A stretch of 64,000 bases of DNA from Lancefieldella parvula DSM 20469 (GTDB lineage Bacteria; Actinomycetota; Coriobacteriia; Coriobacteriales; Atopobiaceae). This document shows, in pieces, positions 1-54,474 of this stretch (positions within the stretch are counted from its first letter, which is position 1; the number at the start of each line of letters is the position of its first letter). Made by a program: the position numbers and the translations under genes. A model generated the notes under the pieces. The model was not told the origin of the DNA. It searched no databases and was given only the letters and a program-made list of their open reading frames with translations. The stretch covers positions 124,001-188,000 of the forward strand of contig NC_013203.1 in the NCBI RefSeq assembly GCF_000024225.1, in the 5' to 3' direction.

Positions 1-589
1 TAGCAACCTCACGTTGGCCCTCGTCATGTGTGGCTTCGTTCATCTCGATAAGCTTACCGCGATCACGACATTCACGAACAAGCGCTGGAATATCAAAATC
101 TAAACCACTACGGCCAAGGTGACCAAGAATCAAAACATGTGGATTATCCAGCGCATTTACATACATCTGAGTAATTTGTTTCTGTGAGGCACCAGCTGCC
201 CATTGCTTGCTGTGAATACTTGCAACAACGTAATCACAGGTTGCCAGGATGTGCTCGCCAAGAATATGAGGTTGGCGAAGTTTGTCACCATTAATACCCT
301 GATCAAACGTAATGTCGTAGGCAAACAGATTGCCCTCAAGGTCAACAATATCAGCCTCAGTACCATGAAGAAGTCTTACACCGTGCCATGTTTCTGGCCA
401 AATTGCAGTGTTCATAAAGAACTGGAAATTCTTGATGGTCTGCTGGTCGTACAACATGGACGAAAAGTGATCAGTGACTCCAAGCAGCTCAAAGCCACGC
501 TCAGCGGCCACGCGGACGTTCTCCTCAACGGTTGAATAGGCATGCCTCGAGTACAGGCTGTGAGTATGAACATCGCAAGTAATGCGCAT
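1..589 (-). CDS. PHP-domain phosphoesterase (YcdX-like), 3' end outside window
   Basis: This is a partial gene: about 196 codons are visible and the C-terminus runs off the left edge. The start at 589 is preceded on the minus strand by AAAGGAG. The protein opens with CDVHTHSLYSRHAY, the His-x-His metal motif of PHP (polymerase and histidinol phosphatase) domains. It continues with GVTDHFS near residue 38, an HGTEAD segment, a VVASIHS segment and LGHLGR, which are the other expected metal-ligand positions. PHP proteins are metal-dependent phosphoesterases of the cytoplasm. YcdX/PolX-like and histidinol-phosphatase-like members cannot be told apart here, so the substrate is unknown. It lies about 100 bases downstream of xth on the same strand. 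Confidence 0.8.
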   Translation of the reverse strand, partial: MRITCDVHTHSLYSRHAYSTVEENVRVAAERGFELLGVTDHFSSMLYDQQTIKNFQFFMNTAIWPETWHGVRLLHGTEADIVDLEGNLFAYDITFDQGINGDKLRQPHILGEHILATCDYVVASIHSKQWAAGASQKQITQMYVNALDNPHVLILGHLGRSGLDFDIPALVRECRDRGKLIEMNEATHDEGQREVA

Positions 590-654
590 GACGTGCTCCT
601 TTGAATCTCAAACGACAATTCTAGTTAATCACGGCCGCTGCTTAGAGGCAACCC

Positions 655-680
655 TGGCGAGAAGACCGATCTTCTCGCCA
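655..680. repeat. Perfect inverted repeat built from two copies of the TTCTCGCC motif
   Basis: The left arm TGGCGAGAAGA (655-665) and the right arm TCTTCTCGCCA (670-680) pair perfectly around the 4-base loop CCGA. It sits between xth and the PHP gene, both on the minus strand. No run of T follows on either strand, so it is not a classical intrinsic terminator, although it could still end or stabilise the xth transcript. Each arm is one copy of the octamer that is over-represented across this window. Confidence 0.85.
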
Positions 681-690
681 CCTGCGTGGA

Positions 691-1470
691 CTACAGCTCA
701 ATGCTTAGCTCAATAGGGCAGTGGTCGCTACCGTAGATCTCACTCAAAATGGATGCGCTCTTGACCTGCTCAGCGATGCGATCGGAGACTAAGAAGTAGT
801 CGATGCGCCAACCAGCATTGTTCTTGCGTGCGTTGAAGCGGTAACTCCACCAGCTGTAAGCGCCGGTTATATCAGGGTGACGATACCTAAACGTGTCGGT
901 AAAGCCCGCGTCCAAAAGCTTGGTAAAGCTCTCGCGCTCCTCGTCCGAGAAGCCCGCATTTTGCCTGTTAGACGATGGGTTTTTCAAGTCAATCTCGTTG
1001 TGAGCAACATTGAAATCACCACAAGTAATTACTGGTTTTTGCTTAGACAGTTCAGCCAAGAAATCACGGTAGTGCTGATCCCATTCAAGACGCTCGTCCA
1101 AGCGTGCAAGCTGGTCTTTTGAGTTTGGCGTGTACACGCACACAAACCAGAACTTCTCAAACTCCAGCGCACAGACGCGACCCTCATCGTCAGCAACAGG
1201 ACATCCAATCTGACGAATTACCTGCAGAGGGGTTTCTCGCGAGAAAACCGCTGTGCCTGAATAGCCTTTTCTATCTGCGTAATTCCAGGTTTGAACATAA
1301 CCAGGGAGGTCCAGTTCAACCTGTCCTTCCTGTAACTTAGTTTCTTGAAGGGCAAATACATCAGCATTTATGGTTTCAAAAATTTCTGTGAACGAAGGTT
1401 CCTTTTTAAGTACGGCGCGCAAGCCGTTAACGTTCCAAGAAATCAACTTGTATTCTTGAGTTTGACTCAT
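691..1470 (-). CDS. xth: Exodeoxyribonuclease III / AP endonuclease
   Basis: The protein (259 aa) belongs to the exonuclease-endonuclease-phosphatase family and cleaves DNA at abasic sites and from 3' ends in base excision repair. It begins KLISWNVNGLRAVLKK. QETKLQ follows with the metal-binding Glu, then YSGTAVFSR, CGDFNVAHNEIDL with the catalytic Asp and Asn, WRIDYFLVSDRI, and the terminal SDHCP with the catalytic Asp-His. The length matches the family. I chose the start at 1470 because GAAAGAGGAGCT precedes it and because the reading frame upstream (to 1608) is not conserved-looking. It is divergent from folP-folK. Confidence 0.96.
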   Translation of the reverse strand: MSQTQEYKLISWNVNGLRAVLKKEPSFTEIFETINADVFALQETKLQEGQVELDLPGYVQTWNYADRKGYSGTAVFSRETPLQVIRQIGCPVADDEGRVCALEFEKFWFVCVYTPNSKDQLARLDERLEWDQHYRDFLAELSKQKPVITCGDFNVAHNEIDLKNPSSNRQNAGFSDEERESFTKLLDAGFTDTFRYRHPDITGAYSWWSYRFNARKNNAGWRIDYFLVSDRIAEQVKSASILSEIYGSDHCPIELSIEL

Positions 1471-1673
1471 AGCTCCTCTTTCATGCTGTGACCTGGTAGT
1501 TTGGGCGCAGCGGTTACGTATCACGGTTGCCACAGATGAGATGCATACCACTATCCAGTTACGGCGCCGAGCGGTACGTTTGCGGCAATAAACTTTCAAT
1601 AAATCCATGGTATACGAGCAATGGCCGTCAATACCGCTACAATAGAAACATTCATAGCTGGCAAGGAGGATTT

Positions 1674-3146
1674 ATGCTTCGTCAAAGCTACAACACCTGG
1701 CAATGTGGAGCTCACACTATCTCGTTGGCTCGTCCTAGAATCATGGGCGTTCTCAATGTCACTCCAGATTCATTTTCTGATGGCGGAAAGAACTTTGATC
1801 CAGAGGCAGCAATTGCTCGCGGATTGCAGATGCTAGATGAGGGCGCTGACATTATTGATGTTGGTGGAGAGTCTACTCGTCCAGGTCACACGCCTGTTCT
1901 ACCTACAGAAGAGGCTGAACGCGTAGTACCTGTGGTGCGTGCGTTGGTAGCTGCTGGCGCAATTGTTTCCATTGACACGCGCCATGCTGAGGTGGCTAAG
2001 ATGTGCGTCCGTCTTGGAGTATCAATCATCAACGACGTCACGGGCTTCACTGATCCAGAGATGGTTGCTGTAGCTGCGGAATCTGATTGTGGCTGCATTG
2101 TGATGCACTGGAACAAAGAAGGCCTTGGTGCTCGTGTTGAGCGCAAGCAGGTTCAGTTGGACGATATGCGTCCTTCTCGCCCTACTGGCAGTGCAGCTGC
2201 TCGAGCTGCAGCTACAGGTACTGAAACACGCACATTAAGTTCGCAACGTCGTTTTACCTTGCCTGAAGAGGCACCTATCATGCGTCAGATTATGGGATTT
2301 TTGGGTGATCAGGCTCGCGGTTTGATGCGTGCTGGTGTATCCAAGGACCGCATCTGCATTGACCCAGGTCCAGGTTTTGACAAGTTTGCCGACGAAGATG
2401 TTGTTATTCAGCGCGCTACTCGTTCTATGGTTTCTATGGGATATCCGCTGCTCTGTGCGGTGTCTAGAAAGCGCTTTGTTGGCGCTGTTTCTGGTGTAAC
2501 TGAGACTACGCAGCGTGATGCAGCTACGCACGCAATTTGCATTGCTGCAATTACCAACGGTGCCCGTATCCTGCGTGTTCACGACGTTGCAGGAACCGCT
2601 CAAGCCATCAATGCCTATTGGGCTATGACTGAGCACGACCCTCGTCAGGGATTTGTAGCGCTTGGCTCTAACGTGGGTGACCGCGTAGGCTATCTGGCTC
2701 GAGCTACACAGCTCATCGATGAAATTCCACTGACCTGCGTTGTTTCGGTCAGCCACGCGTATGAGACCGAGCCTGCGTATGGTATTGCCACGCCTGTGGT
2801 AAATGCTGTTGCCGAGATTAGAACTGAGCTCCATCCGCTTGTGCTTATGGATAAGCTGCTTGAGGTAGAGAACGCTTTGAACCGCACACGCAAGAAGGGC
2901 GAAGAGGGCCACGGTCCTCGTACTATCGACTGCGATCTTCTGTGGGTTGAGGGCGAACAACACGCAGGTAAACACCTCACTCTGCCTCATCCACGCATGG
3001 GCGAACGTGATTACGTACTTGTTCCTATGGAGGATCTGATGCATGATCCTGTACGCTTCTTCTCACATGGTGACGTAGATATTGTCCCTCCTGATCAGCG
3101 CGTCGGTCACGTAACCGAGGACTTGGGAGCCATTACGTGGGAGTAG
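1674..3146 (+). CDS. folP-folK: Fused dihydropteroate synthase - HPPK
   Basis: One 490-residue polypeptide carries two consecutive folate-pathway enzymes. The N-terminal dihydropteroate synthase shows MGVLNVTPDSFSDGG (residues 24-38), GGESTRPG, NDVTGF, IDPGPGFDKF and VSRKRFVG. The C-terminal 6-hydroxymethyl-dihydropterin pyrophosphokinase starts near residue 325 with VALGSNVGDR and carries GPRTIDCDLLW and LPHPRMGERDYVL. Both domains look complete. An insertion rich in Arg, Ala and Thr of about 50 residues follows the MHW segment of the synthase domain (about residues 155-200). The start at 1674 has GGAGG nearby; the frame upstream of it is unlikely to be coding. The next gene overlaps its last 10 bases. 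Confidence 0.95.
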   Translation: MLRQSYNTWQCGAHTISLARPRIMGVLNVTPDSFSDGGKNFDPEAAIARGLQMLDEGADIIDVGGESTRPGHTPVLPTEEAERVVPVVRALVAAGAIVSIDTRHAEVAKMCVRLGVSIINDVTGFTDPEMVAVAAESDCGCIVMHWNKEGLGARVERKQVQLDDMRPSRPTGSAAARAAATGTETRTLSSQRRFTLPEEAPIMRQIMGFLGDQARGLMRAGVSKDRICIDPGPGFDKFADEDVVIQRATRSMVSMGYPLLCAVSRKRFVGAVSGVTETTQRDAATHAICIAAITNGARILRVHDVAGTAQAINAYWAMTEHDPRQGFVALGSNVGDRVGYLARATQLIDEIPLTCVVSVSHAYETEPAYGIATPVVNAVAEIRTELHPLVLMDKLLEVENALNRTRKKGEEGHGPRTIDCDLLWVEGEQHAGKHLTLPHPRMGERDYVLVPMEDLMHDPVRFFSHGDVDIVPPDQRVGHVTEDLGAITWE

Positions 3147-3847
3147 CACAGGAAGCTCTGGAGCTAGCACGTGGTGGTGCGCAAACGGGTGAGTTTGTGT
3201 TCCGTGCCTCTGACGTGCAGGAAGATTCTGTTCAGGGTCAAAAAGTATGCCTTGAGCTTGCATCCCCATCGACTGGCGAGAAACCCCTTGAGGTTGCAAC
3301 TGTTGTGCGTCTTGGAGTTTCGATGCCGTATGTGCCTGCAGTTCCATACGTCGTGGCGCTGGGAGTTTGTCAGTTTTTGCGTGCAGCAGATGATAACTTT
3401 GGTATCTACTGGCCTTACGATATCTGCTATAAAGATCAGGTAGTTGCCTCGATTAAGGCTACTGCTGGCTATCAGGAGGGCATGTTTACCGTGGTGAGTG
3501 TTGCCGCAAACGCTGAGGCACTGAACTCAGTGTTTGATGTTGCAGACAATAAAGAACTTCTCGCCAAAAAGGTATCTGAACTGATTGTTCAGAGCGTGGG
3601 TACATGGGAACAGCAGGTTAAGCATACGCAAAGCTTTGCAGGACCAATCGCGCTGATTCTGAGCGACTACTTTGATGTGGTTCCTTTGCTTGGACAGCAG
3701 GTCAACAAGGTATATCCCAGCGGTAACGTTGCGCTAACCGCTCGATTTGGCGGCATTGACGTGTGGGGTCATGCCATTCTTGTTGATGAAAATGGTAAAG
3801 AGATTCTTGTAAGTGAGGACGAAGCTTCCGTGGTACCAGCGGTTTAG
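3137..3847 (+). CDS. Biotin protein ligase-like protein, probably not catalytic
   Basis: This 236-aa protein (GTG start overlapping folP-folK) resembles the BirA/LplA ligase fold only weakly. The segment YWPYDICYKDQVVASI (residues 91-106) aligns with the KWPND...GRKLAGI region of BirA. The end (GIDVWGHAILVDENGKEI) resembles the C-terminal strand of the family. The GRGRxGR biotinyl-AMP loop is not visible, and Val occupies the position of the catalytic Lys of BirA. It is adjacent to and convergent with coaX; biotin ligase genes are often beside or fused to coaX in bacteria, which supports the family call. I infer a degenerate or repurposed ligase. Confidence is good that it is a gene and moderate for the family. 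Confidence 0.6.
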   Translation: MGVAQEALELARGGAQTGEFVFRASDVQEDSVQGQKVCLELASPSTGEKPLEVATVVRLGVSMPYVPAVPYVVALGVCQFLRAADDNFGIYWPYDICYKDQVVASIKATAGYQEGMFTVVSVAANAEALNSVFDVADNKELLAKKVSELIVQSVGTWEQQVKHTQSFAGPIALILSDYFDVVPLLGQQVNKVYPSGNVALTARFGGIDVWGHAILVDENGKEILVSEDEASVVPAV

Positions 3848-3882
3848 CGGCTGTTCTTGAAGATGTTGCAGATTGGCGCCAA

Positions 3883-4665
3883 CTATTTAGTGACTTCGAC
3901 AGACTGCTTCCAGATCAGATAAATACCACGCATGGTGAGCTGTGGATCAACTACGTCAAAAATGTCTGTTGCTTCGCTGACGGTGTTTGCCAGGCCGCCT
4001 GTTGCAATAACGGTTGCGCCCTCAATGCCAGGCTCTTTGAGCGTTCTAGTAACTAAACCCTCTGCTTGAGCAGCAGCTCCTACCACAATACCTGCCTGAA
4101 CAGCGCTTTCTGTAGTATTCCCCAAGACGGTCTCAGGAGCCTTGATAGGAATACTGGAGAGCTTGGCAGCGCGTGCAAACAGGGCGTTTGCAGAAATCAT
4201 AATGCCTGGTGAAATGGCACCTCCGCGGAATACACCGTCTTTATCAACAACATCTAAGTTGGTAGCGGTACCAAAATCAACCACTATGACTGGATAGCCA
4301 TAGCGCTCAGTTGCAGCAACAGAATTTGCTATGCGGTCAGCGCCCACAAGCTCGGGGTGGGGGATGTTGAAGCGGATTTTATCCGTAGAGAGTGCATTAA
4401 TAGAGGTCAGAGGCTTGTTAAGCAGTAATTCAAAACAACGCTTCCAAGCACGTGTGATAATAGGAACTACGCAGGAAAGTCCACCAGCTTCGATGTCATC
4501 AAGATTCAAACCATCTTTCTGGAAGAACGTAAAAAGGCGTCCGTGCAGAATATCAGAGGTATCGCTTTGATCGGTGGGCATTCTCCAACCACGCACCATA
4601 GTGCCCTCATTGTCAAATAAACCAATGGCAGTTTGCGTGTTACCTACATCAATCGATAAAAACAT
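3883..4665 (-). CDS. coaX: Type III pantothenate kinase
   Basis: The protein (260 aa, the usual length) phosphorylates pantothenate in the first step of coenzyme A synthesis. It belongs to the ASKHA fold: IDVGNTQTAIGLFD at the N-terminus is the phosphate-binding loop, GADRIANSVAA near residue 108 holds the catalytic Asp, and VVDFGTATNLDVV and ATGGLANTV form the remaining nucleotide site. Type III kinases are not inhibited by CoA. It is convergent with the biotin-ligase-like gene, with 35 bases between the two stops. Confidence 0.95.
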   Translation of the reverse strand: MFLSIDVGNTQTAIGLFDNEGTMVRGWRMPTDQSDTSDILHGRLFTFFQKDGLNLDDIEAGGLSCVVPIITRAWKRCFELLLNKPLTSINALSTDKIRFNIPHPELVGADRIANSVAATERYGYPVIVVDFGTATNLDVVDKDGVFRGGAISPGIMISANALFARAAKLSSIPIKAPETVLGNTTESAVQAGIVVGAAAQAEGLVTRTLKEPGIEGATVIATGGLANTVSEATDIFDVVDPQLTMRGIYLIWKQSVEVTK

Positions 4666-4814
4666 TATGTCTCCGAGGGGCTATAGATGAGCTTTTATGT
4701 CGTATTGAATTTTAGCTTATTGAGGGCTTCTCAAAAGTTGTCGCATACAAGAAATATCTGCACAAAATGTGAATTTCTCGACAACTGCTTCTAGTAACAG
4801 ATGTGTTGTTCTGC

Positions 4815-4820
4815 TATACT
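4815..4820 (+). promoter_or_regulatory. Likely promoter of rpmE (extended -10)
   Basis: TATACT at 4815-4820 is preceded by TG one base upstream, giving an extended -10 box. No good -35 is seen at the right spacing. It lies about 25 bases before two stable hairpins that precede the L31 gene. Confidence 0.5.
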
Positions 4821-4842
4821 TTTTCAGCTTATTGTCTTGATT

Positions 4843-4888
4843 GGGCGTCTGCCCAAAAGACGCCCCTGCTCTGGTCGGAAACCAGAGC
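4843..4888 (+). promoter_or_regulatory. Structured mRNA leader of ribosomal protein L31
   Basis: Two consecutive perfect hairpins lie between the promoter and rpmE. The first pairs GGGCGTC (4843-4849) with GACGCCC (4859-4865). The second pairs GCTCTGGT (4868-4875) with ACCAGAGC (4881-4888). The ribosome binding site TAAGGAG starts 6 bases later. Leaders of this sort let ribosomal proteins repress their own synthesis. L31 leader candidates have been described in several bacterial lineages, and from memory a Coriobacteria version exists among them, but I cannot verify the match. Confidence 0.65.
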
Positions 4889-4906
4889 CGATGTAAGGAG
4901 TCCTGC

Positions 4907-5326
4907 ATGAAGCAAGGTATTCATCCAGAGTACGTAGAGTGCACCGTTCGCTGCACCTGCGGAAACACCTGGACCACACGCGCAACTGTTCCAGAGATGC
5001 GTCTTGACCTCTGCGACAAGTGCCACCCATTCTATACGGGTCAGCAGAAGCTTGTCGACACTGGTGGACGTGTTCAGCGCTTTGCTGACAAGTTTGGTGG
5101 CGCAGCAAATGCTACTCTCGAGGCCGCTAAGGCTGCCAAGGAGGCAAAGGCTGCTAAGGCTGCTGAGCAGGAGGCTGCTCGTAAGGCCGCTGCCGAGGCA
5201 AAGGCTGCCGAGAAGGCAAAGCGTGCTGCTGAGTTTGCAAAGAACGCACCAGTCGCAGAGCCAGAGCCAGAAGCTGAGGCTGAAGCCGAGGCCGAGGCAC
5301 CTGCAACCGAAGAGGCTGCAGAGTAG
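4907..5326 (+). CDS. rpmE: 50S ribosomal protein L31 with long charged C-terminal tail
   Basis: The first 65 residues are L31: [19 protein letters not shown], then [14 protein letters not shown]. The CxC and CxxC pairs mark the zinc-binding form. L31 usually ends after about 65-80 residues, but this protein continues to 139. The extra 70-odd residues are almost only Ala, Glu and Lys, with a run of Pro-Glu/Ala-Glu pairs near the end, and probably form a helix followed by an acidic disordered tail. The start at 4907 follows TAAGGAG. A strong terminator follows the gene. Confidence 0.93.
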
Positions 5327-5367
5327 CAGGTATTTGCTCGCGCAAAGACCAGCACAAAGTGCAGAAT

Positions 5368-5395
5368 CGGGGTGGCTTCGGCTGCCCCGTTTTTG
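5368..5395 (+). terminator. Intrinsic terminator after rpmE
   Basis: CGGGG pairs with CCCCG, extended inward through TGGC/GCTG around a TTCG tetraloop, followed by TTTTTG. A motif copy (GGCGAGAA at 5399) starts directly after the T run. Confidence 0.88.
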
Positions 5396-5462
5396 TTTGG
5401 CGAGAAACCCATCCAACTCAGAGGGTATACTTAAAAGTGAAAAATCTGCCGTCGGAGGACGA

Positions 5463-7730
5463 ATGGAATCACTGTATACAAAGTATCGTCCGCAAACGTT
5501 TGAGCAGGTAGTTGGCCAGAAGCATGTGGTCGGCACCCTTAAGCGAGCGGTCTTGGAGCAAAAGCTCAGCCACGCATACCTGTTTTGCGGACCTCGCGGC
5601 ACGGGTAAGACCACCATGGCTCGCTTGCTGGCAAAGGCGATTCTTTGCCATGAGGCGCCTGGTCACTTGCCCGATGGTACTTGTGAGGATTGTCAGCTGA
5701 TTGCAGCTGGTCAACACCCAGATGTCTTTGAGATTGATGCTGCTTCTAACACTGGCGTTGATAACGTGCGAGAAGAGATTATTTCTCGCGCTAGCTACGC
5801 CCCGGTGTGTGGCAAGGGCAAGGTTTACATTATCGACGAGGTGCACATGCTTACCTCGGCCGCATTTAATGCTTTGCTTAAGACGTTGGAGGAGCCTCCT
5901 TCACACGTGACCTTTATCATGTGTACCACGGATCCTCAGAAAATTCTTGCAACTATTCTTTCCCGTGTGCAGCGTTTTGACTTCCGCTCCATTGCTGCTG
6001 ACGAGATGGCAGAGCATCTTATCAGTGTCTGTAAAAACGAGGGTTTTACCTACGAAGATGCAGCGATTGATCTTATTGTCCGTTACGCGCGCGGCGGCAT
6101 GCGTGACGCACTTTCTTCTCTTGAGCAGCTTTCCGTTTACGGCGGCGGCGTCATTTCCGAGCAGACGGTTCGTGACGTATTGGGTCAGTCTTCCGGGTCT
6201 CTTATCAATAGTGCCGCGTTGGCGCTGGCTCAGCGAGACATTTCTTCTCTCTTTACCACGGTAAATACACTGTTTGAAGGTGGCAAAGATTTGCTGCAGT
6301 TTACGCGCGAGCTTGCTGCTCATGTGAGAGACCTCTACGTTGCTACCGCTGTGGGTGTTGATTCTCCGGCATTAGCAAATTCTTCTGCATCAACCGAGCA
6401 GCTTACAAAAGAAGCTCAGGCATTTGGTTCGGTTGACCGACTCTCTAGGGTTTTAACCGTTCTGGGTGACGCTGCAAATCAGATGCGCACCGCCGTGAAC
6501 CAGCGACTGGTTTTGGAGGTTACGTTCACTAAGTTGGCGCGCCCTAATACGGAACTCTCATTAGAAGCGCTGGCAGATAGGGTGGCGGTCCTTGAGCAGC
6601 AGCTGGCAAATGGTGTTGTTTCAGCTCCAGTTGTCCAGAATTCCGCAGCTCCCGTACACGCGTCGACTCCAGCCGCCCCAGCGGCTCCACAGCCGACTTC
6701 AGCTCCGGCGGCCGCACCAGTTGTTGCGCACACGTCAACACCAGTGCCCACACCAGTTGCTGCACCTGCACCAGCTCCGACGCAGCAATCTGCACCAGAA
6801 TTGCCTTCTCAACCTGAGCCTAAACCAACTGCAGCGACTGTACCAGTTTCAGCGCCAGCACCAGTTGCAGCAGCAACGTCATCACAACCTGCGCCTGTGC
6901 CAAAAGAAGTTGATCAATCAGACGCACTTCTCGCCAGACAATGGAAAGAAGTCAGTAAGGTTTGTACCTCTAAGAATGCTGCTCATGCCGCACTATTGGT
7001 CAGCTCAACGCTTGAGTCCGACGACGGCTCTGAGCTGGTAATCACACTGCCTAAAGGCTCCTCGTTTGCTATGAGAATGCTCAGCACGCCAGCAGTTTCC
7101 GATTTTGTAAAAGAGTGTGTTGCTCAGGTCATAGGTCCACGCCGAATCAAATATGTTGAGTCGAGTCTTGCTGCAACAGCAATCTCGCGAGAAAAACGTG
7201 CAGCTCAGGCGGCCCCAGCGCCTACACCAGTCGCTCCTGTGGCTCTAGTTGCATCATCAGCTTTCGAGTCGGTTGCGCAGCCCGCTTCTGCAGCCGCTCC
7301 AGCTCAAGCACCTGCGTCAGCTCAAGCATCAGCTCCTGTCGTATCTATACCTGCAGCTCCAGCACCTGAGACTTCGTATTCAATGCCTTGGGATGAACCT
7401 GTGCCTGGTGGTGCTCCTGTTGAGGCTTCTAACTACAATCAGGTGCCTTATAGCGATGATGATGTAGCTGTGGTTTTGGACGACTCCGTCAAAGACACCG
7501 TTCCAACTCCACAACCCACAGCTGCGTCTGTGCCTGAAACCGAGCAAACTTCGACTCCTAAGTCCGATCCTATACCAGCTTCGCCAGAGGACGTTGCTAC
7601 TCGCTCGGCACTTCCACCTGAGCTTAACAGTGTGGCAGATATGCTTGAGAGAGTATTTGGACCAGCAGTTTCTCTGTCGGTAGAGAAGAAGCCAGACACA
7701 GAAATTCCTGCAGACCCCGCAAGTAAGTAG
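5463..7730 (+). CDS. dnaX: DNA polymerase III subunit gamma/tau
   Basis: The protein (755 aa) is the clamp-loader ATPase of the replicative polymerase. It begins SLYTKYRPQTFEQVVGQ. Walker A GPRGTGKTT lies near residue 43, a zinc-binding segment with CHE and CEDC follows, Walker B is IIDEVHML, and the sensor/arginine-finger segment reads ILSRVQRFDF (Val where many homologues have Cys). After the AAA+ core come two long Ala/Pro-rich linkers (about residues 375-480 and 575-740) flanking a folded region of about 85 residues, the presumed tau-specific domain. The start is set by GGAGG eight bases upstream. I saw no obvious slippery heptamer for a gamma product. Confidence 0.95.
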   Translation: MESLYTKYRPQTFEQVVGQKHVVGTLKRAVLEQKLSHAYLFCGPRGTGKTTMARLLAKAILCHEAPGHLPDGTCEDCQLIAAGQHPDVFEIDAASNTGVDNVREEIISRASYAPVCGKGKVYIIDEVHMLTSAAFNALLKTLEEPPSHVTFIMCTTDPQKILATILSRVQRFDFRSIAADEMAEHLISVCKNEGFTYEDAAIDLIVRYARGGMRDALSSLEQLSVYGGGVISEQTVRDVLGQSSGSLINSAALALAQRDISSLFTTVNTLFEGGKDLLQFTRELAAHVRDLYVATAVGVDSPALANSSASTEQLTKEAQAFGSVDRLSRVLTVLGDAANQMRTAVNQRLVLEVTFTKLARPNTELSLEALADRVAVLEQQLANGVVSAPVVQNSAAPVHASTPAAPAAPQPTSAPAAAPVVAHTSTPVPTPVAAPAPAPTQQSAPELPSQPEPKPTAATVPVSAPAPVAAATSSQPAPVPKEVDQSDALLARQWKEVSKVCTSKNAAHAALLVSSTLESDDGSELVITLPKGSSFAMRMLSTPAVSDFVKECVAQVIGPRRIKYVESSLAATAISREKRAAQAAPAPTPVAPVALVASSAFESVAQPASAAAPAQAPASAQASAPVVSIPAAPAPETSYSMPWDEPVPGGAPVEASNYNQVPYSDDDVAVVLDDSVKDTVPTPQPTAASVPETEQTSTPKSDPIPASPEDVATRSALPPELNSVADMLERVFGPAVSLSVEKKPDTEIPADPASK

Positions 7731-7825
7731 TATTTTTCACGATATGCTGCTTTGGTGCTTGGCATCTTATGTGCCAGCGCAAAGAGCGCAATTTGTCTAA
7801 AATAGATATGACGATAGGAGAACAT

Positions 7826-8164
7826 ATGGCACGTGGTGGATTTAACATGGGCGGCATGAACCGCAATCAGATGATGGCTCAGGCTCGTAAAATGCAGGAG
7901 CAGCTGCTGGAGGCTCAGCAGAAGGCTTCTCTTATGCAGGCTACAGCAAGTGCTGGTGGCGGAGCTGTTAAGGTAACTGCATCCGGTGACCTGCGTTTAA
8001 CCAACATTACCATTGATCCTGAGGCAATTGACCCTGAGGATATTGAGATGCTCCAGGACATGATTCTGGCAGCTGTAAACGACGCTCTTGAGTCCGCAGA
8101 GTCTCAGGCGTCTGCTCAGATGAGTGCAGTAACTGGCGGACTAAATATCCCAGGATTGTTCTAA
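7826..8164 (+). CDS. ybaB: YbaB/EbfC family nucleoid-associated protein
   Basis: The protein (112 aa) is a DNA-binding dimer of the YbaB family. It shows the helical RNQMMAQARKMQEQLLEAQQ segment and the conserved core GGGAVKVTASGDLRLTNITI with DPEDIEMLQDMILAAVNDAL. The N-terminus is Gly/Met-rich. GATAGGAG sets the start. It lies between dnaX and recR, the classical arrangement for this family, and recR begins 3 bases after its stop. Confidence 0.95.
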   Translation: MARGGFNMGGMNRNQMMAQARKMQEQLLEAQQKASLMQATASAGGGAVKVTASGDLRLTNITIDPEAIDPEDIEMLQDMILAAVNDALESAESQASAQMSAVTGGLNIPGLF

Positions 8165-8167
8165 TTT

Positions 8168-8779
8168 ATGGCGTTTGATACCACAAATGATGGTCGTGCG
8201 CTGCAGCGCTTACTTGATGAGTTAGGTCGCCTACCAGGCATTGGTCCAAAGTCAGCCCAGCGTATTGCGTATCATCTTTTAGAGGTTGATTCCGAGGAAG
8301 CTCGCCGTTTAGCTCAGGTCATCTTGGAGCTTAAGCAGCAAGTACATTTTTGTCCTATCTGCTTTAACTATGCAACGCGCAACGAATGCGATATCTGCCT
8401 GGATTCTTCTAGGGACCGCAGCAAAATATGTGTGGTCTCCGAGCCAAAGGATGTCTCAGCAATTGAGCGTACTGGTGCGTTCCACGGTCTCTACCACGTT
8501 CTGGGAGGCGTTATTTCTCCTATGGATAAGATTGGTCCCGAGCAGCTTCACGTGCGCGAACTGCTGTCTCGTTTGGCTGATGGCACCGTAACCGAGGTTG
8601 TCTTGGCAACCAATCCGGATGTTGAGGGAGAAACAACTGCAACGTACCTCTCCAGAACTATTAATCCGCTTGGCGTGAGGGTTACCCGATTAGCAAGTGG
8701 GCTTCCCGTAGGCGGAGATCTTGAGTATGCGGACGAGGTAACATTGGGACGCGCAATTGAGGCGCGTCGGGAGGTTTAA
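8168..8779 (+). CDS. recR: Recombination mediator RecR
   Basis: The protein (203 aa) works with RecF/RecO to load RecA on gapped DNA. The N-terminal helix-hairpin-helix reads [20 protein letters not shown]. The four-Cys zinc finger is [16 protein letters not shown]. The Toprim domain runs from [14 protein letters not shown] through [18 protein letters not shown]. Length and motif order are typical. It is co-transcribed with ybaB, and the downstream membrane protein gene begins 2 bases after its stop. Confidence 0.97.
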
Positions 8780-8781
8780 GC

Positions 8782-9453
8782 ATGGCAAACCACATGAGAA
8801 CAAGTTCATCTGGCGAGAATACCCCTGAGGCTTCATCGGTTGATATGAAGAATATTTCAACGCTTCGCGCAGGTCAGGGAGCACAAATTCCTCAGAGTCC
8901 ACGACAGGCGGACAACACACCTGAGCCTCCAAATAGAAAATCGGTCATCATTCTGGTAGTCGCAGCTATTGTTGCGCTTACCGCTTTGTTCTTTATTGTT
9001 CGCTGTGCCACCAGTACTAAAGATGAATCTACAAATCAGCAGCCAAAACAAACTCAATCCGCTTATGCTGACGAAAAGCAGCAGGATGAGCAGACAGTTG
9101 ATGGATCGGTTACCTTCCAAGGTATTAAATATTCCCTGGAGAAGCAGAGCGACGGCAAAACTGCTGTTGTTCGTACTAGCGATTCGGGAACTAAGAGCGT
9201 TTTGTTTGAAGTTGAAGGAACTCCTACAAGTTTGATTCTTTTTAACGGTACTATTTTGGTGCCAGAGAATCGCGATTCTGGCTGGGATGTTGTAGCTTGT
9301 GCTCTGGTAGATGGCTCGCTTCCAACACTTATTGCCGATAAGGACGGTAAGACAGTTGGAGGTAACGGAACTATCACCGCAGCTACCTTAGATGGAACCA
9401 CGCTTAAGGTAACTGATTCCACCGGAAATATCACCAGCGTTGCTCTTCAATAG
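8782..9453 (+). CDS. Single-pass membrane protein, unknown function
   Basis: I do not recognise this 223-aa protein. Residues 1-52 are polar and probably cytoplasmic. Residues 54-73 (SVIILVVAAIVALTALFFIV) form one membrane helix, followed by a polar Gln/Lys/Glu-rich linker to about residue 105. A region of about 115 residues follows with alternating short strands (VTFQGIKYSLEKQ, TSLILFNGTILVPE, GTITAATLDGTTLKVTD), suggesting a small extracytoplasmic beta domain. It follows recR by 2 bases and is probably in the same operon, but the context does not suggest a job. Confidence 0.75.
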   Translation: MANHMRTSSSGENTPEASSVDMKNISTLRAGQGAQIPQSPRQADNTPEPPNRKSVIILVVAAIVALTALFFIVRCATSTKDESTNQQPKQTQSAYADEKQQDEQTVDGSVTFQGIKYSLEKQSDGKTAVVRTSDSGTKSVLFEVEGTPTSLILFNGTILVPENRDSGWDVVACALVDGSLPTLIADKDGKTVGGNGTITAATLDGTTLKVTDSTGNITSVALQ

Positions 9454-9670
9454 GAGGGCACCAGTAGGAGCTTGATAGGAGTCTGGCAGAAACCTTACAG
9501 GAGCTTGAGAGAAATTTGACGGAAGTACGATTTGTGTTGCAATGAATTTCTCGGCAGAATTGTTGCAAGAAAGTTGTAGATTTCTAGTGAGCGTTCACGT
9601 TGTTGACCTGTAGGTATTCTTATTGAGTTGTTTTTTACGACAAAATTTTTAAATTCGTTGAAAATAACGC
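9454..9670. other. Non-coding stretch before tRNA-Asp
   Basis: No gene with a credible start site is seen. The decamer AGGAGCTTGA occurs twice (near 9465 and 9500), which might be chance. A variant of the window-wide motif (TTTCTCGGCA) lies near 9547. The tRNA promoter begins at the right end. Confidence 0.5.
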
Positions 9671-9699
9671 TAGACAAGAATAAAAGTTCCCTGTATTAT
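9671..9699 (+). promoter_or_regulatory. Promoter of tRNA-Asp
   Basis: TAGACA at 9671-9676 and TATTAT at 9694-9699 are spaced by 17 bases, ending 22 bases before the tRNA. Both boxes are close to the vegetative consensus. Confidence 0.65.
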
Positions 9700-9721
9700 T
9701 TCAATTCGCAACAAGGCGTCC

Positions 9722-9798
<77 letters not shown>

Positions 9799-9808
9799 TT
9801 GCATGTTC

Positions 9809-9833
9809 AAGCCCTTTTCGGAGGGCTTTTTCA
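9809..9833 (+). terminator. Terminator after tRNA-Asp
   Basis: AGCCCT (9810-9815) pairs with AGGGCT (9822-9827), followed by TTTTTCATT. Confidence 0.85.
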
Positions 9834-9989
9834 TTAAAAAATAGTCCAGCATAAAATGTTTAAATTACATCTTCAATTTATTGAAAGCAAGCCAGAAAAT
9901 AACACATTGTGTGATATCTTTACATCAGAATGTATCTAAGTGCTTCTGCTGAAGAAACATTTAAAAGCAGAGGTAAAGTGAGGTGGATT

Positions 9990-10757
9990 GTGCGGGATCA
10001 AAATACTTTGGACACGCTATCGCAACGCGATGGTGTGAATTCCATGCCCGCAGAATCTTCAATCACAGAATCCACTTCAGATTCAATCAAGAAAATTGCT
10101 GTTTTTGATTTTGACGGAACCGTCATTTCTGGACAGTCGGGATTCTTGTTCTCTGCGTATTTGCTTCGTCGCCATCTGTCTTCAGTTTCTCGTACGTTAA
10201 AGCTCATGTGGTGGGGAGCGCGCTATAAATTGCACCTTCCTCAGAGGCAGGAGGAGGCACGCGAGCTGGTTGTTGGCGCACTTACGCAGTACAGCATTGA
10301 GTTTGCAAATGCTGTCATGCACGATTTTCATCGTGAGGTGATTGAGGGTATGTATCGCCCTCAGGCACTGGAAGAGGTGCGTCGTCGGCAGGCAGAAGGT
10401 TGCTGCGTATTGTTGGTTTCAGCAACATTTGAGCCTATTGCGGAGTTGGCCGCAAAGAAGCTGGGAGTGGACGCGTTTCTCGCCACAAAGATGCAGGTGG
10501 GAGCAGATGGACACTATACCAGTAAGGTTGACGGTCCTGTGATTGAAGGCGCTCAGAAGTTGGTCTCGGCAACCGAGTGGTGCAACCAGCATTATGGCAA
10601 GGGTAATTGGGAGCTTGCATACGCGTATGGCGACCATTACTCGGATGCAACACTTTTGTCAGCAGCACAAACACCATGTGCTGTTTGCCCTGGTCCAACA
10701 CTTACCAGGCTTGCGAATAAGCGCGGTTGGACAATTTTGAACTGGGAGAACGATTAA
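9990..10757 (+). CDS. HAD-superfamily phosphatase, SerB/CicA-like (subfamily IB)
   Basis: The protein is about 255 aa. Motif I is AVFDFDGTVISGQSG, with the nucleophile Asp and the acid/base Asp. Motif II is LLVSATFEP, and motif IV is AYGDHYSDATLL. This order with an alpha-helical cap (LLRRHLSSVSRTLKLMWWG) fits the HAD-IB group, which includes phosphoserine-phosphatase-like and lipid-phosphate-related members; the substrate is unknown. I prefer the GTG at 9990 because GAGG lies six bases before it. An upstream ATG at 9930 and a downstream ATG at 10044 are alternatives. It stands alone between tRNA-Asp and the Rrf2 regulator. Confidence 0.85.
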   Translation: MRDQNTLDTLSQRDGVNSMPAESSITESTSDSIKKIAVFDFDGTVISGQSGFLFSAYLLRRHLSSVSRTLKLMWWGARYKLHLPQRQEEARELVVGALTQYSIEFANAVMHDFHREVIEGMYRPQALEEVRRRQAEGCCVLLVSATFEPIAELAAKKLGVDAFLATKMQVGADGHYTSKVDGPVIEGAQKLVSATEWCNQHYGKGNWELAYAYGDHYSDATLLSAAQTPCAVCPGPTLTRLANKRGWTILNWEND

Positions 10758-10832
10758 CCTGGTCACACGTCAGATAAGTGATTAAAACAGTCCCTCGAGC
10801 GGACGGACATAAGAGGGGTACTTGGAGAACCA

Positions 10833-11429
10833 ATGGAAATTTCACGCAAAACTGACTATGCAATTCGTATGCTTTCTTCGCTGGTGAGAAACCCTAAGAA
10901 GCTTCTTTCTGTTCGTGATGCCGCGGAAGAAAACGATATTCCGTACTCCTTTGCTCGCTCAATTCAGCATGACCTGGTTATCGCTGGTGTAATTGTAAGT
11001 ACGCGTGGTGCTCGCGGTGGTATGATGCTTGCCATAGATCCTACTCAGGTGAGCGTTCTTGACATTGTTGAGGCAGTTCAGGGACCTGTTTTTATTTCTA
11101 ACTGCGAGTGGGCAGGTCCTAATAATGAGCCATGTCCTCGCCACAATTCTTGTTACTTTGGCCCCCTTTGGTGCAGTGCTGAGAAAACCTTGCGTAATTT
11201 CTTTGCGTCTGTGACGCTGCATCAAGTTGTTGTAGAGGGTCTTATGCCAGAGATGGTGGGTGAATTCCAGCTGGTGAAGAACGAGAATGCTCAGCGTAAC
11301 GAGCAAATTATTCAAAACGCTGCCGATGCTATTGAGGCTGAGATAACCGCTGGTACGTTTGATAATCTGCTTGACGGCGAAGTTGTTTCTGCAGAGAAAA
11401 AGCCTTATGAGTTTAATAGAGCATGGTAA
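10833..11429 (+). CDS. Rrf2-family iron-sulfur transcription regulator
   Basis: The protein (198 aa) starts MEISRKTDYAIRMLSSLV, the Rrf2 winged-helix signature, with the wing at TRGARGGMMLA. Four Cys at residues 91, 101, 107 and 114 could hold an iron-sulfur cluster; IscR and NsrR use three Cys in this region. Unlike typical 140-160-residue members it has an extra 40 or so helical residues at the C-terminus. GTACTTGGAG precedes the start. No isc/suf or nitric-oxide gene is adjacent, so the target is unknown. It may regulate nearby redox genes such as rubrerythrin, which is inference only. Confidence 0.88.
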   Translation: MEISRKTDYAIRMLSSLVRNPKKLLSVRDAAEENDIPYSFARSIQHDLVIAGVIVSTRGARGGMMLAIDPTQVSVLDIVEAVQGPVFISNCEWAGPNNEPCPRHNSCYFGPLWCSAEKTLRNFFASVTLHQVVVEGLMPEMVGEFQLVKNENAQRNEQIIQNAADAIEAEITAGTFDNLLDGEVVSAEKKPYEFNRAW

Positions 11430-11492
11430 AAGCTTGTAGCGGTGCTTTAGAAAATTGTTTAAGAAAATAACATTTTGTAGTTGAAACTATGC

Positions 11493-11516
11493 CACATGCA
11501 TTTTGCATGTGCTTTT
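11493..11516 (+). terminator. Terminator after the Rrf2 gene
   Basis: CACATGCA (11493-11500) pairs perfectly with TGCATGTG (11504-11511) around TTT, followed by CTTTTAG. The T run is short. Confidence 0.6.
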
Positions 11517-11533
11517 AGATTATAGTTAGCTAC

Positions 11534-12535
11534 ATGAAGAAAAAAATTTCACATACAAAAACAAACGAAGACCTGGATACGGTGTCTGACATTTCAACAT
11601 CTTTATCCGATGAGCTTGCAGTTACATTTAAAAAGACAGAGCTTACGACAGAGCTACGTGCGTTTGTCGAGTCTGTGGCCAAAAAAGGCCGCGAGCTGTA
11701 TCGCGATTTGCCTTGGCGTCGCACGTACGATCCATATGCCATTTGGATTTCTGAGGTCATGCTTCAGCAGACGCAGGTTAGTCGCGTAGATGGTCGCTGG
11801 CAGAGATGGTTGGAACACTTTCCAACGGTTGATGCGCTGGCTGCTGCCGCGCCTTCAGATGTACTTGAAGAATGGCAGGGCCTGGGCTACAACCGTCGAG
11901 CTTTGTCTGTACATCGAGCTGCTCAAGCAATTTCTGAAGCAGGCGGAGTCTTTCCACAAGATCAAAAGGAGCTCGTAAAGCTTCCAGGCATTGGTCCCGC
12001 TACTGCAGCAGGTATTCGCGCGTTTGCGTTCAATCTGCATGGCGTTTATTTGGAGACTAACGTTCGTACGGTTTTCTTGCATGAGCTTTACCCGCAGGCA
12101 GAAGGAGTGCCAGACTCTGAGCTTATTCCTCTTGTTGAGCTGACGTGCCCTGCGAGTGTTTCTACCGCAGCGGGCACTGACACAGCAAACGCTGCTACAA
12201 CGGAACTCACGCCGCGTAGCTGGTACTACGCCCTTCTCGACTATGGCGCGTACCTGAAGAAAACTATTCCCAATCCTTCACGAAGGTCTAAAAGCCACGT
12301 CAAACAGTCTCGCTTTGAGGGCTCTCATCGGCAGAAGCGTGCTGAGCTTTTACGCGTTCTTCTTGCCCACAAAGATGAGGGTGGAGCAGAGTTTGAGACA
12401 CTTCATCAGGAACTCTGTCAGATTGAGGTCCATGCCGGGCGAGAAACCCTTGATGAGCAGGTTACCCTTGGCTTACTTGAAGAACTTGCGAAGGAGGGCT
12501 TCTGTCAGAAAAATGATGAATATTGGTTGCCATAA
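11534..12535 (+). CDS. mutY: MutY-type A/G-specific DNA glycosylase lacking the Fe-S cluster
   Basis: The protein (333 aa) is a helix-hairpin-helix GPD glycosylase. The adenine-pocket segment WISEVMLQQTQVSRV has the catalytic Glu (residue 74), and the hairpin is KLPGIGPATAAGIRAF (149-164). Two departures are clear. The C-terminal Cys cluster of classical MutY is absent: the segment after LLDYGAYLKKTIPNPS has no Cys at all. Also, the catalytic Asp position reads VYLETNVRTV, with Glu instead of Asp. Both features mark a Fe-S-less MutY-like subfamily that I recognise from anaerobes. Residues 205-228 are a low-complexity insertion. No clear ribosome binding site precedes the ATG. Confidence 0.88.
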   Translation: MKKKISHTKTNEDLDTVSDISTSLSDELAVTFKKTELTTELRAFVESVAKKGRELYRDLPWRRTYDPYAIWISEVMLQQTQVSRVDGRWQRWLEHFPTVDALAAAAPSDVLEEWQGLGYNRRALSVHRAAQAISEAGGVFPQDQKELVKLPGIGPATAAGIRAFAFNLHGVYLETNVRTVFLHELYPQAEGVPDSELIPLVELTCPASVSTAAGTDTANAATTELTPRSWYYALLDYGAYLKKTIPNPSRRSKSHVKQSRFEGSHRQKRAELLRVLLAHKDEGGAEFETLHQELCQIEVHAGRETLDEQVTLGLLEELAKEGFCQKNDEYWLP

Positions 12536-12584
12536 ATGGTTATAATGCTAAGTGCTGACGAAGGGGTCAGTATATGAGCATAAG

Positions 12585-12599
12585 TGCTAATGATTATCA
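12585..12599 (+). promoter_or_regulatory. Fur/PerR-type box upstream of rubrerythrin
   Basis: TGCTAATGATTATCA matches the 7-1-7 Fur consensus TGATAATNATTATCA at 13 of 14 defined positions. It lies 92 bases before the rubrerythrin start. Fur and PerR boxes are nearly identical, so the protein that binds cannot be told; PerR control of rubrerythrin is common in anaerobes. Confidence 0.75.
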
Positions 12600-12690
12600 T
12601 TTGCATTTGTTTGCCAAAGGTAAAACGGCGCTACCCAGGCGCTTTAACATGCGTTGACGTGTCACTCGTTAGCGCGGGAGAGGAGAAAAA

Positions 12691-13236
12691 ATGGCAGTAG
12701 AGTTTGAGAATTCTCAGACAAAGAAGAACCTCGAGGCAGCTTTTGCTGGTGAGTCTCAGGCATCCATCAAGTATGGTTTCTATGCAAAGCAGGCTTCCAA
12801 GGGTGGTTACGAGCAGATTGCTGACATCTTTAACGAGACCTCCGGTAACGAGAGTGTTCACGCAAAGCTTTGGTTCAAGTACCTCCATGGTGGCAAGATG
12901 CCAGAGACTGCAGAGTGCCTCAAGGACGCAGCTGCTGGCGAGAACTACGAGTGGACCACTATGTACGCTGACTTCGCTAAGGTAGCTGAGGAGGAGGGCT
13001 TCGCAGAGATCGCTGCTAAGTTCCGTCTTGTTGGCAACATTGAGAAGGCTCACGATGAGCGTTATACCAAGCTCCTTGAGCGCGTTGAGTCCGGCGAGGT
13101 CTTTGAGCGCGAGGGTGTCAAGGTCTGGAAGTGCCTCAAGTGCGGTCACCTGCACGTTGGCGCATCTGCACCAAAGGTCTGCCCAGTCTGCGGTCACCCA
13201 CAGGCATACTTTGAGGAGCAGGCTCTCAACTACTAA
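12691..13236 (+). CDS. rbr: Rubrerythrin
   Basis: The protein (181 aa) is a peroxide reductase of anaerobes. The N-terminal four-helix domain carries the di-iron ligands in [25 protein letters not shown] and [10 protein letters not shown]. The C-terminal rubredoxin-like domain has [10 protein letters not shown] and [11 protein letters not shown], the two CxxC pairs that bind one iron. GAGAGGAG precedes the start. A Fur-type box upstream and a strong terminator downstream suggest a single-gene transcript. It lies between two DNA glycosylase genes. Confidence 0.97.
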
Positions 13237-13328
13237 GTTGCAGAGTGTTCTGAGTTACAGAACCGCACGATTACGTGAAGCTGTAACTGTGTAGAACTGC
13301 AGCTCAACCTTCTAGTACTTTAAAATGT

Positions 13329-13367
13329 ACCCGCCGGCAAGCTAATGGTTTGCCGGCGGGTATTTTT
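13329..13367 (+). terminator. Strong terminator after rubrerythrin
   Basis: ACCCGCCGGCAA (13329-13340) pairs with TTGCCGGCGGGT (13350-13361), followed by ATTTTTG. It also lies downstream of the convergent nth gene and may serve both. Confidence 0.92.
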
Positions 13368-13432
13368 GTGCATAGGTGTTGCTGTGAGATTGGATTTCTC
13401 GTGATCCGGTGCTGGACTGTGTCTGAGCACGC

Positions 13433-14104
13433 CTATCCCTTGAACCAGCGGTTGGGCTGTTCATAGGAGGGACAGATGTCGCTCATGGGGCAGCCGACGC
13501 ACTTGGGGTTGCGGGCAGTGCAGGTTTCTCGCCCAAAATGAATCCACTCTTCATTGACGTCTTTCCAGAGCTCATGGGGGAGAAGCGCGAGCAGGTCCTT
13601 CTCGGCAGCTAACGGCGTGGAAGCCGAGCTCAAGCGCATGCGCTTGGAGATTCTGTACACGTGCGTGTCCACTGCAATACCATCTACCACGTTAAACATT
13701 TTGTTGAGGACAATGTTTGCAGTCTTTCGGCCAACGCCCGGGAGTGTGACAAGGTCTTCCATGGTTCCTGGAACTTCTCCACCGTATTCTGTTAGCAGAA
13801 TCTGTGCAGTCTCCACGCAGTGCTTAGCCTTTGCGCGCCAGAAGCCGATGGTCTGGATGACCTCTCCCACTTCGACAATATTGGCAGCTGCCATGGAAGG
13901 CGCGTCTGGCCAGCGGCGGAATAGCTCGGGTGTGACTTTATTTACTGCGGCATCAGTAGTCTGTGCCGAAAGCATAACACTTATGAGCAGGGTAAACGCA
14001 TCATGGTAATCTAGCGCACTTTGGACGCTTGGATAGAGCTTGTGCATGCGTCGACATAGCTCAACACCGCGTTCTACCTTGGTTTTCTTTGATTCTCTGG
14101 GCAT
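13433..14104 (-). CDS. nth: Endonuclease III
   Basis: The protein (223 aa) removes oxidised pyrimidines and nicks the abasic site. The hairpin LPGVGRKTANIVLNKMF contains the Schiff-base Lys, and GIAVDTHVYRISKRM has the catalytic Asp. The Fe-S loop near the C-terminus is CTARNPKCVGCPMSDIC, the exact C-x6-C-x2-C-x5-C pattern. The cluster is therefore kept here although the MutY-like protein 1 kb away lacks it. The gene is convergent with rubrerythrin and divergent from mfd. Confidence 0.96.
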   Translation of the reverse strand: MPRESKKTKVERGVELCRRMHKLYPSVQSALDYHDAFTLLISVMLSAQTTDAAVNKVTPELFRRWPDAPSMAAANIVEVGEVIQTIGFWRAKAKHCVETAQILLTEYGGEVPGTMEDLVTLPGVGRKTANIVLNKMFNVVDGIAVDTHVYRISKRMRLSSASTPLAAEKDLLALLPHELWKDVNEEWIHFGRETCTARNPKCVGCPMSDICPSYEQPNRWFKG

Positions 14105-14304
14105 GTCCTCTCCTCAATATCTCTCTATGTGTACCCAGTATGTAGTTACGTTATCACGTGGGGCGAGAATAGCAAAATAGCTGCATAACGGCTACAATAA
14201 CAGCCCAATTGAAAAGTGATCAAACCTGCGCGACTACGCAAAGCAAGGTTTGGTATAACCCGCATGCGTTTGTATGTGGGTTTAGCGGCATGGCGGGAGA
14301 CTGT

Positions 14305-17300: not shown

Positions 17301-17748
17301 GTTAGAGCAGACTGAAGTAACTATCAATCTGCCTGCAGATTTCTTCCTTGATGAGGACTATCTGCCAGAAGTTGACCGACGTGTTTTGGTGTATCGTCGT
17401 CTTGCCGCAGCTACAGAGCTTTCCGATATAGACGCTCTTCAGCAAGATACCGAGAATAGCTTTGGAGCCCTGCCTCTTGCGGGTAAGAACTTGTTTGATC
17501 GTGCTCGTGTGCGCATTCGTGCGCAGCGTTTGGGCGCAACGTCAGTAAGCCTAACAAATGGACGACTGGTATATTTGGGTGTAGAAATTCCTCGCGAACA
17601 AGCCCTTAAGTTGAAGGGTCGCGGTGCTATTGTGTATCCAAAGTCGCATAAGCTGGCATATCCGTTCCACCGAAATGAAGAGCAGCTGATGCCCGCCGCC
17701 CTAGGAGTTCTTGAAGAACTTGGCGGCGACGACGAGGTTGAGGAGTAA
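14305..17748 (+). CDS. mfd: Transcription-repair coupling factor
   Basis: The protein (about 1147 aa) displaces stalled RNA polymerase and recruits UvrA. The UvrB-like N-terminal region is followed by the RNA-polymerase interaction domain ([20 protein letters not shown]) and the translocase core. In the core, Walker A is [13 protein letters not shown], the DExQ box is [13 protein letters not shown], and [13 protein letters not shown] and [17 protein letters not shown] follow. A TRCF C-terminal domain ends the protein. I chose GTG 14305 because GGGAG lies five bases upstream and [10 protein letters not shown] then begins the protein as in other Mfd. An ATG at 14290 and a TTG at 14209 are alternatives. 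Confidence 0.94.
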
Positions 17749-17750
17749 AC

Positions 17751-18833: not shown

Positions 18834-18838
18834 GTTAT

Positions 18839-19741: not shown

Positions 19742-19827
19742 ACGAGCTATATCAGTCACGTCACAAGATGCACAATTTGCCGCGGAGGCAATAGCTTCTA
19801 TTCGGTGAAACGATGAAATTCTAAACT

Positions 19828-19852
19828 GAGGCAGGGCTAGCGGCGCTGCCTC
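19828..19852 (+). other. Hairpin between mazG and the DivIC-like gene
   Basis: GAGGCAG (19828-19834) pairs with CTGCCTC (19846-19852) around 11 bases. There is no T run. A possible -10 box, CATAAT, lies directly after it at 19856-19861 and may serve the next gene. Confidence 0.4.
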
Positions 19853-19918
19853 TGCCATAATACAGATGTTGCAATTTGTTGCGACGCATCACCAAACAAA
19901 CCAGAAATGAGATCCGTG

Positions 19919-21840: not shown

Positions 21841-21863
21841 TGGCATAATAACTAAACATATCC

Positions 21864-21948
21864 GGGGGCGTGGCGGAATTGGCAGACGCAGGGGACTTAA
21901 AATCCCTCGACTTCGGTCTTGCGGGTTCGAGTCCCGCCGCCCCTACCA
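21864..21948 (+). tRNA. tRNA-Leu (TAA)
   Basis: Acceptor GGGGGCG pairs with CGCCCCT. The anticodon loop CTTAAAA gives anticodon TAA. A long variable arm (CCTCGACTTCGGTCTTGC region) confirms a class II tRNA, and the T arm is GCGGG-TTCGAGT-CCCGC. CCA is encoded. Confidence 0.97.
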
Positions 21949-22037
21949 TTTTTACTGCTGAATAAACAGCATAGTTCCTTCGCATAGAAATTTAATTTAG
22001 ACGTGTAGCTCCTATTCTGTTCTTGTACAGAAACTTG

Positions 22038-22043
22038 TATACT
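22038..22043 (+). promoter_or_regulatory. Possible promoter and repeated CTTGT elements before the GntR-transketolase gene
   Basis: TATACT at 22038-22043 is a good -10, with no clear -35. The pentamer CTTGT recurs at about 22022, 22034 and 22045, at 11-12-base spacing (one helical turn), overlapping the -10. This could be an operator for the regulator encoded just downstream, which is inference. Confidence 0.4.
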
Positions 22044-22098
22044 ACTTGTCCTGTATCTAACGTATGCACGACTAATTTTCATTCATTTCGGAGGACCT

Positions 22099-24887: not shown

Positions 24888-24890
24888 ATA

Positions 24891-24926
24891 AAAACCCAAG
24901 GAAGCATTTGCTGCCCTGGGTTTTGT
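24891..24926. terminator. Bidirectional terminator between transketolase and tRNA-Glu
   Basis: AAAACCCA and GG on the left pair with CC and TGGGTTTT on the right. A/T runs flank both sides, so it can end transcription from either strand. Confidence 0.75.
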
Positions 24927-24932
24927 GCTCTA

Positions 24933-54472: not shown

Positions 54473-54474
54473 CA

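Follow-up and report, generated by a model that had tools for sequence, protein, structure and literature searches.

A probable DNA-uptake-sequence-like word in Lancefieldella parvula and related Atopobiaceae-type genera, with head-to-head pairs at gene ends

Our analysis suggests that GCGAGAA is the core of a word resembling a DNA uptake sequence (DUS), TGGCGAGAA[A/G]NNC, which is carried by Lancefieldella and by related Atopobiaceae-type genera, and we regard this reading as probable. According to a 2025 paper, such systems occur only in the Neisseriaceae and the Pasteurellaceae, and the origin and benefit of uptake tags have therefore been argued from the cases of these two families (PMC12616744). 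As the word in L. parvula resembles uptake tags in all respects, it may represent a third, independently evolved case. On balance, we lean towards the fuller proposal that this is the third DNA-uptake-sequence system of independent origin, the first outside the two Gram-negative families and the first in the Actinomycetota, written in two or more dialects across mouth and gut genera of the Atopobiaceae type, and read by a Tad/Flp-pilus-based machine instead of a type IVa pilus. If true, such a third case in a different phylum, with its dialects by clade and another type of pilus, would provide an independent replicate of the known cases, would make the question of selection versus drive testable in a monoderm, and would supply a ready tag for the genetics of commensals of the mouth and gut in which transformation is difficult. 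Our search of the literature, which was incomplete and may have missed an earlier description, returned no report of an uptake sequence for Atopobium, Coriobacteria, Actinobacteria, Actinomycetota or the word itself, and no transformation, uptake or biased-uptake experiment in this group.

The window, that is, the whole stretch of 64,000 nucleotides analyzed here, corresponds to positions 124001-188000 of the single 1,543,805-bp contig of L. parvula; the genome size published for the type strain of Atopobium (now Lancefieldella) parvulum is 1,543,805 bp (PMC3035223). The features of the window that concern the word are the following.

1..64000, unstranded: core GCGAGAA, 66 copies (32 on the plus strand, 34 on the minus strand) across the whole window, where it is the top 7-mer
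2..589, minus strand: putative PHP-family gene, its start 66 nt past the hairpin, running beyond the window edge; the family name is that of the original prediction
655..680, unstranded: hairpin of two head-to-head TGGCGAGAAGAYC copies, T run absent on both sides
657..667, plus strand: motif copy GCGAGAAGACC
668..678, minus strand: motif copy GCGAGAAGATC
691..1467, minus strand: xth (exodeoxyribonuclease III), stop at 691, the hairpin beginning 11 nt beyond; named from the original prediction and the sequence
1233..1246, unstranded: TTTCTCGCGAGAAA within xth, two opposed cores overlapping tail-to-tail
5768..5789, unstranded: head-to-head pair GCGAGAA N8 TTCTCGC, called intergenic, with a 7-bp stem and no T run
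45106..45127, unstranded: head-to-head pair GCGAGAA N8 TTCTCGC, a 7-bp perfect stem without a T run; a gene at 45275 lies 148 nt on
61603..61632, plus strand: head-to-head pair of the ACGAGAA variant, a perfect 10-bp stem followed by TCGTTTT, with a stop at 61589 13 nt earlier; terminator-like

The segment at 655-680 reads TGGCGAGAAGA CCGA TCTTCTCGCCA, a perfect 11-bp stem around a 4-nt loop, and is thus exactly the 11-4-11 hairpin of two opposed motif copies that had been described from the sequence; it also lies, as proposed, between xth and the PHP gene, with the stop at 691 and the start at 589 both on the minus strand. Folded as RNA it reaches -21 kcal/mol (z -2.8 and -3.9). The xth gene was detected by protein search in all five genus members. 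An orthologous hairpin was found among the four other members only in the nearest sister, G059, which keeps a perfect stem with an altered loop base; the other three differ in the downstream region. No match was obtained when the first 6 kb were searched against phages. The same design had been reported at 45104-45127 (GCGAGAA/TTCTCGC) and, with a one-base variant, at 61603-61632, and both pairs are real, the former mapping to 45106-45127. Their RNA folds score z -0.7 on the plus strand and -2.2 on the minus strand at 45106-45127, and -23 kcal/mol (z -4.8) at 61603-61632, and the pair at 5768-5789 is a fourth that was missing from the original list. The remark that the first two sites lack a T run also proved correct, since none is present on either strand at 655-680 or 45106-45127. 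As it lacks a U-tract, the gene-end pair at 655-680 is better read as an uptake-word pair that may protect the 3' end or act as a pause there than as a strong terminator. Elsewhere in the window, positions 45885-50729 hold a 1614-aa open reading frame whose product resembles a fused protein of the 2-hydroxyacyl-CoA dehydratase activase type.

Our statistics combine genome-wide pattern searches with sampled stretches that cover about one third of the chromosome. The word TGGCGAGAA[A/G]NNC is the most over-represented in the genome; this consensus comes from 395 aligned copies, with C at +10 in 77% of them, and the Lancefieldella word is also written as TGGCGAGAARNNC and TGGCGAGAAGACC. Genome-wide, GCGAGAA occurs 582 times on the plus strand and 587 times on the minus strand (1169 in total, or about one core per 1.3 kb), against 372 (182 and 190) for the reversed control. 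For TGGCGAGAA, 142 copies were observed where an order-3 Markov model expects 9.0 (15.7x), and the excess falls to 2.58x for one-mismatch neighbours and 1.08x for two-mismatch neighbours, with shuffled words at 0.69-1.12; within the word, TGG is tolerant of mismatches and CGAGAA is strict. A mismatch gradient of this kind has served as the footprint of an uptake word in Haemophilus and Neisseria (PMC1939737). Two further strings are over-represented in the G000 sample, TGTCGAGAA (39 copies, 5.5 expected) and GAGAAACCC (52 copies, 3.8 expected); they may be variants that are tolerated, or may reflect a stronger form of full length, GCGAGAAACCC.

Copies are scattered in a Poisson-like manner along the chromosome (mean 4.18 and variance 3.84 per 5-kb bin). 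Their density in the sample is 1.45 per kb in intergenic and 0.73 per kb in coding DNA, fractions that are approximate because the simple codon-score caller used for gene calls missed xth, which is absent from this count. Coding copies are split between sense (151) and antisense (145), and the reversed control word is depleted between genes, opposite to the motif. In the aligned copies, information is near background beyond -2 and about +14; a mobile repeat of the REP/MITE type was rejected, as the motif alignment holds no conserved sequence well beyond the core.

The word is not confined to the species of the window. It is equally dense in the four other genus members, where head-to-head pairs number 37-47 and tail-to-tail pairs 12-17, and sister genera carry the same word or the one-base dialect TGCCGAGAA; genera without the word exist too. 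In 80-kb samples the leading words are GGCGAGAA in g16, GGGCGAGAA in g30, GCGAGAAGG in g4 and TGCCGAGAA in g23, while intergenic DNA alone yields GCGAGAANNNC in g1, g4, g16, g29 and g30, and CCGAGAANNNC in g23 (30 copies, with 0 of the G form); the intergenic DNA of g7 and g15 holds no word above control. Compared genus by genus rather than on a species tree, the dialects GCGAGAANNNC and CCGAGAANNNC go with clades and surround an invariant core. Strong enrichment of the 9-mer TGSCGAGAA is largely a feature of this family, and weaker signals elsewhere in the class may be of coding origin. In g23 (G047 and G023), where TGCCGAGAA replaces TGGCGAGAA, this 9-mer reaches 765-778 copies. GCGAGAA is abundant in Thermophilibacter provencensis (L135), in Olsenella (L139 and L141) and in two MAGs, but not in Atopobium fossor (L137). 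The copies are also preserved as sites: in 86 kb aligned with the sister species G059 at 88% identity, 51 of 58 motif cores are intact against 26 expected, compared with 8 of 16 against 8.7 expected for the reversed control in the same alignment.

The genomic footprint of the word (density, orientation balance, mismatch spectrum, dialects, gene-end inverted pairs and conservation) matches that of the published DUS and of the uptake signal sequence (USS). The DUS of Neisseriaceae is likewise a short asymmetric word present in hundreds to thousands of copies, prefers intergenic DNA, forms inverted pairs at terminators and varies in clade dialects with an invariant inner core (PMC3630211, PMC12616744). 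It differs in its phylum and in its CTG core, which is unrelated to GCGAGAA, and the Neisseriaceae use a type IVa pilus and the ComP receptor, whereas L. parvula shows only Tad-type T2SSF proteins and no known ComP; moreover, not all Atopobiaceae-type dialect genomes have an excess of inverted pairs. The USS of Pasteurellaceae is similar in density, in the enrichment of its one-mismatch neighbours and in the occurrence of some copies as inverted pairs (PMC1939737), but it is a different 9-mer, AAGTGCGGT or ACAAGCGGT. Around the L. parvula word the AT profile is flat at about 0.5 beyond +11, with no AT-rich tracts downstream of the core, and the periodic AT tracts of the H. influenzae style were not seen. 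In this it differs from the USS of Haemophilus, which is flanked by AT-rich tracts.

Short, non-palindromic words that are very frequent, conserved and clade-variable are also what Chi sites look like, and the word could be a recombination hotspot of the Chi type, or a different replication-repair signal, with an intracellular reader, its hairpin pairs having been co-opted. We consider this unlikely. Chi and KOPS-type signals are usually polar, Chi being biased to one strand along the replichore, whereas the copies summed over the sampled stretches show no bias (189 leading and 216 lagging) and no such polarity; the excess of head-to-head pairs at gene ends also speaks against it. A recognition site for a DNA-binding or DNA-modifying factor, such as a nucleoid protein or a methyltransferase, kept by selection in the manner of cyanobacterial HIP1, would suit the asymmetric bipartite look of GCGAGAANNNC and its conservation under divergence. 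This reading is also unlikely, however, as HIP1 is palindromic and the L. parvula word is not, no partner is known, and the head-to-head pairing at gene ends would be left unexplained. Restriction targets, furthermore, are usually avoided rather than amplified, and here the word is amplified.

With gaps of 0-26, 30 head-to-head GCGAGAA pairs occur genome-wide where about 6 are expected (about 5-fold, P about 2e-12; the expectation of about 6 per arrangement follows from 582 x 587 sites in 1.54 Mb), and neither tail-to-tail pairs (9 against about 6 expected) nor direct pairs are in excess. The original prediction had staked itself on opposed pairs exceeding chance across the genome, and in view of this head-to-head excess it holds on that point. 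In a 479-kb sample, gaps of 4-13 separate 19 head-to-head pairs (0.86 expected), 1 tail-to-tail pair and 1 direct pair. With xth added by hand for the pair and gap-type counts, 16 pair members in the sample lie between convergent genes, 17 between tandem genes and 0 between divergent genes. Single copies are distributed about evenly among these types of gap, and a regulatory site near gene starts was rejected for this reason. A T-rich flank accompanies 13 of 23 intergenic hairpins with the CGAGAA core, several of those in convergent gaps being T-rich on both sides, which is the anatomy of a terminator, the pairs at 655-680 and 45106-45127 being exceptions.

The earlier suggestion that inverted uptake-signal pairs double as terminators thus survives in part: the likeness to uptake signals is borne out by analogy with the DUS and USS footprint, and a terminator role fits roughly one in two intergenic pairs; it does not fit those at 655-680 and 45106-45127, which have no U-tract. 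Among relatives, g23 has no head-to-head excess (10 and 8 pairs against 22 and 23 tail-to-tail, the reverse of the genus of the window), so the word is kept there without hairpin use, and in g29 and g4 inverted pairs are hardly in excess. Given both the missing U-tracts at the two window sites and the abundance of the g23 motif without an excess of inverted pairs, the best reading is that termination is a secondary, lineage-specific use that does not define the motif. The strongest excess of terminator pairs in the family sample was seen in G016 (g16), where CGAGAA pairs number 77 in the head-to-head and 21 in the tail-to-tail arrangement.

The converse account, in which the word is simply a favoured terminator-stem sequence and single copies are decayed or half terminators, draws on the same head-to-head excess, the absence of pairs from divergent gaps and the T-rich flanks. 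It is nonetheless already disfavoured and very improbable, as 296 of 405 sampled copies lie inside coding regions, only about 48 of the 405 (24 pairs) face another copy head-to-head across a gap no larger than 26, divergent gaps hold single copies at nearly the density of convergent ones, and g23 maintains a high density without a pair excess. An origin by chance from codon usage and base composition, suggested by the fit of CCGAGAA to Ala-Glu-Lys codons in some high-GC relatives and by the weak class-wide enrichment, is refuted for g1 and g23 and has almost no standing, being ruled out by the two-fold intergenic over genic density, the equality of sense and antisense copies and the depletion of the reversed control between genes, and opposed as well by the 16-fold excess over the order-3 Markov model, the intergenic-only dialects and the conservation of sites.

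Under the uptake-sequence reading, the gene content of L. parvula offers a plausible apparatus. ComEA and ComEC are encoded side by side in its genome, which also has DprA and a tad locus comprising TadA, TadB, TadC, TadE, a Flp-like pilin and a CpaB-like protein. The T2SSF family is represented by just two genes, whose products are tad-locus proteins (Tad type), so that there is no sign of a pilus of the type IVa or ComG kind. ComEC and T2SSF are each found in 119 of 121 family members, including genera without the word; being nearly universal, their presence does not track the motif and a link between the two across the family was uninformative. Transformation of the actinobacterium Micrococcus luteus depends on ComEA/EC and Tad pili, a gene set like that of L. 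parvula (PMC4322843). M. luteus needs two tad loci, whereas L. parvula shows one, and the relevant passages of that paper mention no uptake word for M. luteus (PMC4322843).

What we observe directly is the word with its distribution, dialects, conservation and pairing, together with the gene set; competence of the cells, biased uptake and the identity of the reader protein we infer. In the proposed mechanism, fragments bearing the word would be bound and preferentially taken up by a DNA receptor on the cell surface that belongs to the competence machinery (ComEA-ComEC with the Tad/Flp pilus), and repeated uptake and recombination of DNA from kin would enrich and maintain the word by molecular drive; divergence of the receptor would produce the clade dialects. 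Two copies meeting head-to-head would form a hairpin, and in Lancefieldella and a few relatives gene ends would have retained such pairs, which in many cases carry a T run and would serve as intrinsic terminators for one strand or for both. Known or predicted receptors of this kind are minor pilins, namely ComP in Neisseriaceae and, by prediction, ComN/PpdA in Pasteurellaceae. The predicted candidates for a receptor of the word are the Tad minor pilins or ComEA. Separately, a head-to-head pair of 10 bp, its loop 20 nt long, is found at G000:C1:780480-780519, about 210 bases before a DprA domain match (780732-781328), and may fall within or just before dprA.

An integrase-linked island at 222-244.5 kb, which carries type I restriction-like genes, holds 3 cores in 22.5 kb where about 19 are expected (P 7e-6). 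This scarcity agrees with the uptake reading, but any word that a genome gains slowly would be sparse in islands as well. Outside the window, G000:C1:231364-239700 (L219, L220) contains a putative type I restriction locus, its genes named by eye from their translations.

231364-232509: second HsdS-like gene
232534-233718: integrase, adjoining the second HsdS-like gene
233616-237002: HsdR-like
237003-238163: HsdS-like
238156-239700: HsdM-like

Judged from its sequence, this locus looks like a phase-variable, invertible specificity locus.
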